In this document: one piece after another, positions 12,441 to 25,188 of the stretch
Position numbering within the stretch: position 1 is the first letter of the stretch
Layout: the number at the start of each line of letters is the position of its first letter
Assembly: GCA_903856295.1 (NCBI GenBank)
Contig: CAIOBP010000249.1
Span: 1 to 35,471 of the forward strand
Reading direction: 5' to 3'
DNA from: an uncultured Rhodospirillales bacterium
Lineage (GTDB): Bacteria; Pseudomonadota; Alphaproteobacteria; Azospirillales; Azospirillaceae
DNA: 35,471 nucleotides
Notes under the pieces: generated by a model
What the model was told of the DNA's origin: nothing
Database searches by the model: none
Seen by the model: only the letters and a program-made list of their open reading frames with translations
Program-made: the position numbers and the translations under genes

Positions 12441-13166
12441 ATGAGGGTTCTGCTGGTCGAAGACGATTCCTCGGTCGCCAAGAGCATCCAGTTGATGCTG
12501 CAATCGGAAGGCTACATCGTCGATTCCACCGACCTTGGAGAGGACGGGCTGGAGATTGGCAAGCTTTATGATTACGACATCATCCTGCTCGACCTCATGC
12601 TGCCCGACATCGATGGCTATGAGGTTTTGCGCCGGTTGCGCGCCGCGCGGGTCACGACTCCGATTCTCATCCTCTCGGGCCTGACAGAGCTTGATCACAA
12701 GATCAAGGGGCTGGGCTTCGGCGCCGACGACTATCTGACCAAGCCCTTCGACAAGCGCGAGTTGGTGGCGCGGATTCAGGCGATCGTCCGGCGTTCGAAG
12801 GGGCACTCCGACAGTGTCATTCGCACCGGCCGCCTGACCATCAATCTCGATACCCGCATGGTCGAGGTCGATGCCCACCCGGTGCATCTCACCGGCAAGG
12901 AATACGGCATCCTTGAGTTGCTGTCCCTGCGCAAGGGCACGACCCTGACCAAGGAGATGTTTCTCAATCATCTCTATGGCGGCATGGACGAACCGGAACT
13001 CAAGATCATCGATGTGTTCGTCTGCAAGCTCCGCAAGAAGCTGGCCAACGCCTCCAAAGGCGAGAATTACATCGAAACCGTCTGGGGCCGGGGCTATGTG
13101 CTGCGCGACCCCCAGGGCGACGACGAACCCCAACCCCAGCCCCAGCGCGCCCAAGCCGGCGGTTGA
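12441..13166 (+). CDS. ctrA: Cell-cycle response regulator CtrA
   Basis: CtrA is an OmpR-type response regulator that controls cell-cycle, flagellar and motility genes in alphaproteobacteria. The 241-residue product has a receiver domain with acidic pocket EDD (7-9), phospho-acceptor D51 (LLDLMLPD) and K near TKPFDK. The C-terminal winged helix carries the almost invariant CtrA stretch [19 protein letters not shown] and [19 protein letters not shown], and ends [10 protein letters not shown]. The tail after that is short and proline/glutamine-rich. The ATG at 12441 is preceded by GGGAAG at a good distance; the frame is open to 12414. A 60-bp hairpin element begins two bases after the stop. Confidence 0.96.
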
Positions 13167-13168
13167 TG

Positions 13169-13240
13169 CCCGGTTTCCAAAGGCCGCCGGCCTTTGGCGG
13201 GTCCTGGGCGAAGCCCTGGCCTTCGGCGCCCCGGGGCGCC
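13169..13240 (+). repeat. 60-bp intergenic hairpin element, copy B, plus perfect palindrome (behind ctrA)
   Basis: Positions 13169-13228 match copy A (9-68) with four mismatches. Here the first stem is perfect: CCAAAGGCC, loop GCC, GGCCTTTGG. A second small stem GGGC-GAA-GCCC follows. The element runs into the perfect 16-base palindrome GGCGCCCCGGGGCGCC (13225-13240). It starts two bases after the ctrA stop, so a terminator or mRNA 3'-end stabiliser role is likely. Confidence 0.65.
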
Positions 13241-13279
13241 GCCCCGGGACCCCACTGGGACCGGCGGCCCCAGACCTCC

Positions 13280-13399
13280 TTACTTGCCCTTGGCCGGGGC
13301 GACGGCGCCCTTGGTCGAGGGGTTGGCGGCGATAGTTTTCGGCTTTTCGGCTTTCGGCTTCTTCTTCTCGCGATTGCCCTTTTGCTCACCCTTGGCCAT
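13280..13399 (-). CDS. Small basic 39-residue protein
   Basis: This short frame encodes a lysine-rich protein beginning MAKGEQKGNREKKKPKAEKP and ending in a small Ala/Pro/Lys tail. It has an excellent ribosome-binding site (GGGAGGA) about seven bases before its ATG at 13399 and a TAA stop at 13282-13280. From memory, proteins of this type (MAKGQ-x-SNRE-x-KKPK start) are widespread and uncharacterised in proteobacteria. The function is unknown; the charge suggests nucleic-acid contact, but nothing proves it. It lies between the ctrA terminator element and the hpnE end, on the hpn strand, after the hpnE repeat array. Confidence 0.72.
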   Translation of the reverse strand: MAKGEQKGNREKKKPKAEKPKTIAANPSTKGAVAPAKGK

Positions 13400-13476
13400 G
13401 ATCGTGTCCTCCCCCGTGATGGATGTCGGAAACCACAATCAGGATAGGGCGGAATCGCACTTTCGGCAACCGGGTT

Positions 13477-13548
13477 TCACGCCTTCGGCAAGCTGTTGCC
13501 TCACGCCTTCGGCATGCTGTTATTTCACGCCTTCGGCATGCTGGACAT
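13477..13548 (-). repeat. 24-bp tandem repeat growing out of the hpnE 3' end (3 units)
   Basis: Three units of exactly 24 bases occupy 13477-13500, 13501-13524 and 13525-13548. On the minus strand each contains AGC(A/T)TGCCGAAGGCGTGA, which is the last five codons of hpnE with its TGA stop. The first unit read is the real gene end; the next two repeat the last codons and stop downstream. The unit-to-unit variation is mostly in the six bases between copies. Confidence 0.85.
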
Positions 13549-14793
13549 CAGCGCTTCGGCGGCGGTATTGCCCGAGCGGACCGCGCCCTCGATGGTGCAG
13601 GGCAGGCCGGTGGCGGTCCAGTCTCCGGCCAGGAAGAGGTTGCTCCAGCGGGTGACGGCGGCTGGGCGGCGGTGCTGATTGGCCGGGGTCTGCACGAAGG
13701 TCGCGCGCTTTTCCTTGATGATGCGGTTTGGCGGCAGCGGCACCCCTTCGAGATCGAGGGCGCGGGTGACGTCGCGCCACAGCCGTTCGGCGATGACTTC
13801 CGAGGGGCGTTCGGCCAGCGTCCCGGCGCCGCTGACGGTGACGGAAATGACATCGCCGCGCAGGAATATCCAATGGGCCTCGCCGCCGACCACACCGATG
13901 AAGGGCGAGCCGTGGGGCAGCGGCGCCGGCGGCCGGTCGAGGCGGTAGTGGGCGTTGACGATCATGTGCCCGTCCTCGGGCACCACCAGATCCGGCAGCA
14001 GGCCGGCGACGATCGAGGGCGGCAGGGCCAGCACCACGGCGTCGTCGGCGGCCACGGTTTCCATGCTGGTGCCGAAATCCAGGCCGGAGATCCGCTGCCC
14101 CTCGATGCGCAGGCCGCGCAACCGCTGGCCGAAGAACGGGCGGACGCCGTTGCGGGCCAGCAGGGCGAGGGCGGGGGCGACCAGGGAGTCGCCGAGCCCG
14201 TCGCGGGCGATCAGGGGCCGGCAGGAATCGGCGCCCTTGGCGAAGGTCTCCAGCAGCACCGCCTTGAGCGGCGCCGCCGCCGCTTCCTCGGGACCGCAAT
14301 TGAGCGCGGCCAGGGTCAGCGGCTCCCAGAAGCCGCGATAGAGCGGGTGGGACGGCGGCACGCACTCGGCGACGGTGGCGTCGGGGCCGGCGGTCAGCAG
14401 CCGCACCCCCGACCAGTAATCGGCAAGGCATGAGCCTGGCACCCGGCGCGAGGGCACCAGCACCCACCAGGGCAGGGGGCCGCGATTGGGCCGCAGCACC
14501 CAGCGCTGGCCGGACTCGATATCGACGAACGGGTAGGCGGCCTCGGCGGGGGCGATCAAGGTGTCGCGGGCACCGATGCGGTCGAGATAGGCCAGCACTG
14601 CCCGGTTGGCGCTCATCATCAGATGATTGCCATTGTCGAGCTGGCGCCCGAGACTGTGGTCGTAGAAGGAGCGGCAGCGTCCCCCGGCCTGGGGCGCCGA
14701 CTCGTATAAGGACAGGTGGCGGCCGCGCCCGAGCAGGGACACGGCGGCGGCGAGACCGGACAGGCCGGTACCGATTATGTGGACGGACGCCAT
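13525..14793 (-). CDS. hpnE: Hydroxysqualene dehydroxylase HpnE
   Basis: HpnE is an FAD-dependent enzyme that reduces hydroxysqualene to squalene in the bacterial HpnCDE route. The 422-residue product begins MASVHIIGTGLSGLAAAVSL, a dinucleotide-binding GxGxxG fold. It continues with an amine-oxidase-like domain and ends with the flavin-contact motif LFLAGDWTATGLPCTIEGAVRSG. The ATG at 14793 lies 19 bases inside hpnD, so the two genes overlap. The open frame reaches back to 15267, but that part is a shadow of hpnD. The gene's last codons are tandemly repeated beyond the stop. Confidence 0.94.
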   Translation of the reverse strand: MASVHIIGTGLSGLAAAVSLLGRGRHLSLYESAPQAGGRCRSFYDHSLGRQLDNGNHLMMSANRAVLAYLDRIGARDTLIAPAEAAYPFVDIESGQRWVLRPNRGPLPWWVLVPSRRVPGSCLADYWSGVRLLTAGPDATVAECVPPSHPLYRGFWEPLTLAALNCGPEEAAAAPLKAVLLETFAKGADSCRPLIARDGLGDSLVAPALALLARNGVRPFFGQRLRGLRIEGQRISGLDFGTSMETVAADDAVVLALPPSIVAGLLPDLVVPEDGHMIVNAHYRLDRPPAPLPHGSPFIGVVGGEAHWIFLRGDVISVTVSGAGTLAERPSEVIAERLWRDVTRALDLEGVPLPPNRIIKEKRATFVQTPANQHRRPAAVTRWSNLFLAGDWTATGLPCTIEGAVRSGNTAAEALMSSMPKA

Positions 14794-25049: not shown

Positions 25050-25093
25050 CTCGCCTCTTCCCTCGCCATCCTGACCGCCACCGGCTCCGCCGC

Positions 25094-25188
25094 CCTAAAC
25101 GCTATGGCTCCGCCAACTCACACGCTATGGGCTCCGCCATCTTAAACACTATGGGCTCCGCCAACTCACACGCTATGGGCTCCGCCCA
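25094..25188 (-). repeat. 24-bp tandem repeat growing out of the rnfE 3' end (about 4 units)
   Basis: Units lie at 25165-25188, 25141-25164, 25117-25140 and 25094-25116 (the last is one base short). On the minus strand each complete unit contains GGCGGAGCCCATAG(C/T) and a stop: GTGTGA, GTTTAA, GTGTGA. The first unit is the true end of rnfE (GGAHSV plus TGA). The others copy it downstream in the same phase. The array fills most of the rnfE-rnfH gap and would lie in the operon mRNA. Confidence 0.85.

Follow-up and report, generated by a model that had tools for sequence, protein, structure and literature searches.

Bacterial minisatellites consist of near-identical units of roughly 10–100 bp that are repeated in tandem, head to tail. 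Once a local duplication has formed, slippage can lengthen or shorten it. According to the accessible part of one genome survey (PMC12699852), short tandem repeats are weakly enriched in the sequence flanking bacterial genes on either side and lie preferentially downstream of translation ends. A different class of gene-boundary repeat, the mycobacterial interspersed repetitive units (MIRU), is described in the accessible part of PMC12548453 as mobile elements that insert at start codons and carry a gene-coupled ORF. Our literature search found no paper on stop-codon tandem arrays of ~24-bp units, a result that leaves the absence of such reports unproven.

The array described here lies at the 3′ end of hpnE, in a window of 35,471 nucleotides (the whole stretch of DNA analysed). 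This window is contig C249, one of the 255 contigs of a 4.02-Mb genome. The product of the gene scores 385.7 bits against the HpnE equivalog model TIGR03467, well above the cut-off of 283. At the end of hpnE, Tandem Repeats Finder reports a period of 24, with 2.8 copies, 90% matches and a score of 106, at 13477–13543 (Table 1). The segments 13477–13500, 13501–13524 and 13525–13548 are identical pairwise at 20, 18 and 20 of 24 bases. On the minus strand, a TGA occurs at 13525–13527 (the hpnE stop), at 13501–13503 and at 13477–13479, which places the units in phase; each of them reads ATG or TTG followed by CCG AAG GCG TGA. Consequently, the final codons of hpnE, AGC ATG CCG AAG GCG TGA, lie inside a 24-bp unit that is present three times. 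Across 13477–13548, 67 bases are well matched, and the poor match is confined to 13544–13548, the final five bases of the gene-proximal unit. With that reservation, the sequence and Tandem Repeats Finder both bear out the initial annotation, which had described three in-phase 24-base units at the end of hpnE, each with a TGA.

Table 1. Coordinates of the hpnE and rnfE arrays and of neighbouring features in the window.
Feature	Position	Strand	Remarks
hpnE (hydroxysqualene dehydroxylase)	13525..14793	-	Stop TGA at 13525-13527; NCBIfam TIGR03467; span from custom gene calling
hpnE repeat unit 1	13525..13548	-	Coding 3′ end and stop codon; 13544-13548 poorly matched
hpnE repeat unit 2	13501..13524	-	Downstream of the stop; 20/24 identical to unit 1
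hpnE repeat unit 3	13477..13500	-	20/24 identical to unit 2
Small lysine-rich ORF, 39 aa	13280..13399	-	Downstream of the hpnE array; starts MAKGEQKGNREKKKPKAEKPK
rnfE 3′-end array	25064..25186	-	24/48-bp period; between rnfE and an RnfH-like gene

On the scale of our shuffle test, the hpnE array scores 31, and no non-coding array reached a score of 13 when the four genome samples described below were block-shuffled; these results indicate that the array did not arise by chance. Extra degenerate copies can be read by eye on both sides of it. We do not claim them as units, and at least the distal one appears, again by eye, to be homologous to intergenic DNA of a genus mate.

The genus mate G003 encodes an HpnE with 80% identity to the protein in the window, and the gene order is kept, with a lysine-rich small ORF downstream of hpnE there as well. 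We infer that the corresponding ORF in the window, which is without an NCBIfam match, is a real gene. The intergenic DNA that follows hpnE in G003 does not contain the array. Beyond the conserved IEGAxRSG block, the tails of the HpnE proteins caught by our pattern (13 of 19 examined) vary freely, in sequence as well as in length, so the end of the gene is under little constraint.

The history of the second 24-bp array in the window, at the end of rnfE, can be followed more directly. In G003 and in a further genus mate, G002, rnfE and the next gene are some two dozen bases apart, without an array (the empty state). The unit in the window, GGC GGA GCC CAT AGC GTG TGA, matches the conserved coding end, which in G003 reads GGC GGC GCC CAC AGC GTC GGC TGA, and it corresponds to the conserved codons for GGAHSV. 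Since two genus mates have the empty state and the unit matches the coding end, the rnfE array grew from the 3′ end of its own gene. RnfE was matched in three of the five genus genomes searched, this genome counted, and there was no match in the other two (G001 and G004). The rnfE array also has a 48-bp higher-order period composed of two alternating 24-bp types. A 12-mer of its unit is found at two places in this genome, both within the array. Longer intergenic arrays of its own occur in G003, with ~6 copies of 24 bp at L188 (11393–11546) and six copies of 22–23 bp at L202 (2285–2421); the 12-mer GTTGGCGGAGCC, which is repeated six times in the 22–23 bp array, is common to the rnfE unit of the window.

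Could the two arrays in the window share an origin? The hpnE and rnfE units had been called unrelated, and the comparison agrees: their best rotation is identical at 10 of 24 bases, where shuffled sequence gives a mean of 10.4, and a common origin is thereby ruled out.

The hpnE array is very probably a small minisatellite that was born by local tandem duplication and has survived where it is harmless. Replication slippage, or a similar process, would have duplicated approximately the last 18 bases of hpnE together with a few bases beyond. The first copy would keep the working stop, while later copies would fall in untranslated, non-coding DNA. With the stop codon included in the duplicated segment, the protein would still end in place, and the change would be close to neutral. 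The same should hold for a stop-spanning duplication of any period, the protein being unchanged because the first copy retains the upstream context. In this, hpnE probably followed the course taken by rnfE. Such arrays would arise at many sites, persist between and after genes, where they do little harm, and be purged at gene starts. Two results sit less easily with local duplication, namely a nominal excess of stop overlap in this genome at every threshold and an RNA fold of the hpnE array with a z of −2.4; both are considered below.

To place the locus in context, we scanned 1,277,482 bases of this genome (G000) including the window, that is, 31.8%, together with 400,000 bases of G006, 324,551 of G001 and 209,937 of G003. 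Genes were called with our own simple codon-based ORF scoring, which places stops with more certainty than starts. Sampling was not random: the first contigs were drawn from those already returned by searches, and later ones were taken by number or length. Arrays at stretch ends and arrays in gaps of more than 800 bases were excluded from the counts (5 and 5 of 186 in G000 at the lowest threshold). We tried several array thresholds and give the results for each. Small tandem arrays occur frequently outside coding sequence in each of the four sampled genomes, with 51 in 167 kb of non-coding DNA in G000, 25 in 55 kb in G006, 18 in 41 kb in G001 and 14 in 37 kb in G003. One example is the 28-bp array at L133 (11016–11095), which separates two convergent genes and reaches the stop codon of each. 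Of the seven stronger non-coding arrays in G001 (L167–L186), four, with unrelated sequences, share a 17-bp period, although these are too few to judge.

From the two equal periods in one window, the initial annotation had proposed a recurring mechanism in this genome. We considered the form of this idea in which the lineage has a dedicated process that seeds ~24-bp tandem copies at stop codons; the presence of two 24-bp arrays in a single window speaks for it. However, the periods of non-coding arrays are broadly spread, mostly from 13 to 28, without a maximum at 24 (2 of the 51 arrays of this genome), which rules out a preferred 24-bp period. Applied to our sample, the suggested scan placed 4 of 17 arrays of 24 bp no more than 20 bases from a stop, nominally more than the 8.1% given by random placement (P = 0.044), but two of those four are the hpnE and rnfE arrays themselves, and without them the count is 2 of 15 (P = 0.35). 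Likewise, when wholly coding arrays are set aside, stop overlap at a 24-bp period is confined in the sample to the hpnE and rnfE arrays. The period that these two have in common is probably a coincidence.

The placement of arrays of any period bears on the same question. Among arrays that are not wholly coding, 19 of 44, 13 of 26 and 10 of 16 in G000 overlap a stop at the three thresholds (P = 0.03, 0.04 and 0.025, window arrays included), with 32% expected in the case of 13 of 26. Gene-end arrays do, therefore, recur in this genome, as the initial annotation had supposed; a mechanism specific to 24 bp or to stop codons is the part of the proposal that was not supported. Without the window arrays, the overlap is 16 of 39 (P = 0.07), 11 of 24 (P = 0.11) and 8 of 14 (P = 0.08), so a weak stop preference may be real in this genome. 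In the relatives, 1 of 5 arrays in G006, 1 of 7 in G001 and 4 of 9 in G003 overlap a stop, with no significant excess in any of the three alone, and the four genomes pooled without the window arrays give 28 of 87 against 23.5 expected (P = 0.16) and 18 of 47 against 13.9 (P = 0.13). On this balance of evidence, we regard a dedicated stop-seeded process as improbable. We attach the same low probability to the variant in which tandem duplications are actively seeded at stops in this species, and not clearly in its relatives, for example through collisions where translation or transcription terminates, so as to yield gene-end-specific minisatellites.

The clear placement signal is, instead, the avoidance of start codons. 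In the pooled genomes without the window arrays, only 10 of 87 arrays overlap a start, compared with 23.4 expected (reached in 0 of 2000 simulations), and 4 of 47 compared with 14.5 (1 of 2000). Uncertain start calls may contribute part of this deficit, but the size of the effect makes them unlikely as the full explanation. Arrays inside genes in the sample have periods that are mostly multiples of three. Taken together with the rarity of arrays at starts, this is more readily explained by selection on retention than by a mechanism that targets stops. The stop in the first unit is in itself no evidence for such a mechanism, because any duplication that spans a stop must produce it.

Could the hpnE units instead act in the RNA, as functional hairpins of the 3′ untranslated region that protect or end the transcript? 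Read by eye, the unit can pair as CAUGCC-GAA-GGCGUG, and the array folds better than its shuffles (z = −2.42; 2 of 200), although one A–U pair, also by eye, is broken in the third unit. On the other hand, shuffling does not weaken the fold of the rnfE array (z = +0.86), no terminator-like site is present at 13100–13700, no Rfam match is found within the window, and the array is missing from G003. The hpnE array thus shows neither the stable hairpin with a T run nor the known RNA family by which an intrinsic terminator or structured 3′ RNA element is recognized. Palindromes are also not enriched in the array units of this genome. When best perfect stems were compared with those of random doubled non-coding segments, the means were 3.15 against 2.92 in G000 (26 arrays) and 2.29 against 2.61 in G001 (7 arrays), and hairpins as the general driver of arrays were rejected; stems were above random in G006 (4.80 against 2.80; 5 arrays) and G003 (3.11 against 2.35; 9 arrays), where arrays are few. 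A role as RNA hairpins therefore seems unlikely to us, if marginally less so than seeding at stops.

We also asked whether a mobile or dispersed repeat inserted at the hpnE stop could be the source of the units, as a dispersed element of ~80 bp lies nearby, at 13200–13286. That element differs in sequence from the hpnE unit. The unit core occurs at 15 places in the genome with at most two mismatches, of which three are the array and one other has a single mismatch, and the unit thus lacks the many related genomic copies of a dispersed mobile repeat of MIRU or REP type. Such an origin is the least credible of those considered, and we give it almost no weight. The element itself is GC-rich and palindromic, with at least 42 matches in this genome including itself, 17 in G002, 6 in G001 and 1 each in G003 and G004. 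Within our sample it has 28 matches, of which 25 are mostly non-coding and 23 are closer to a stop than to a start (P = 0.0005 relative to one half), at a median distance of 11 bases. It resembles a REP-type or terminator-like sequence and seems to have proliferated in this species.

Local duplication retained where it does no harm, consequently, remains our preferred account of the hpnE array, and we regard the array, although real, as an ordinary gene-end minisatellite. Units that each carry a stop codon look designed, yet this pattern follows from any duplication that spans a stop. Stop-codon sites would be places where small duplications can build up without harm to the protein; a true preference for stops, if shown, would point to gene ends as a mutational hotspot.

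Compared with described systems, the 24-bp hpnE unit is longer than the repeats in the accessible part of PMC12699852, where units of 5, 7, 8 and 9 are named. Like the MIRU as presented in the accessible part of PMC12548453, the hpnE units are short repeats at a gene boundary with little effect on the gene; unlike them, the hpnE unit is not dispersed and lies at a stop.

In period, copy number and proportion of matches, the hpnE array has the units of a minisatellite, and these units are local and specific to the locus, as is more directly seen for the rnfE array from its empty state in relatives. Bacterial minisatellites of the VNTR type have short units, few near-identical adjacent copies, a locus-specific sequence and a lineage-specific presence, all of which the hpnE array, seen in one strain, resembles.
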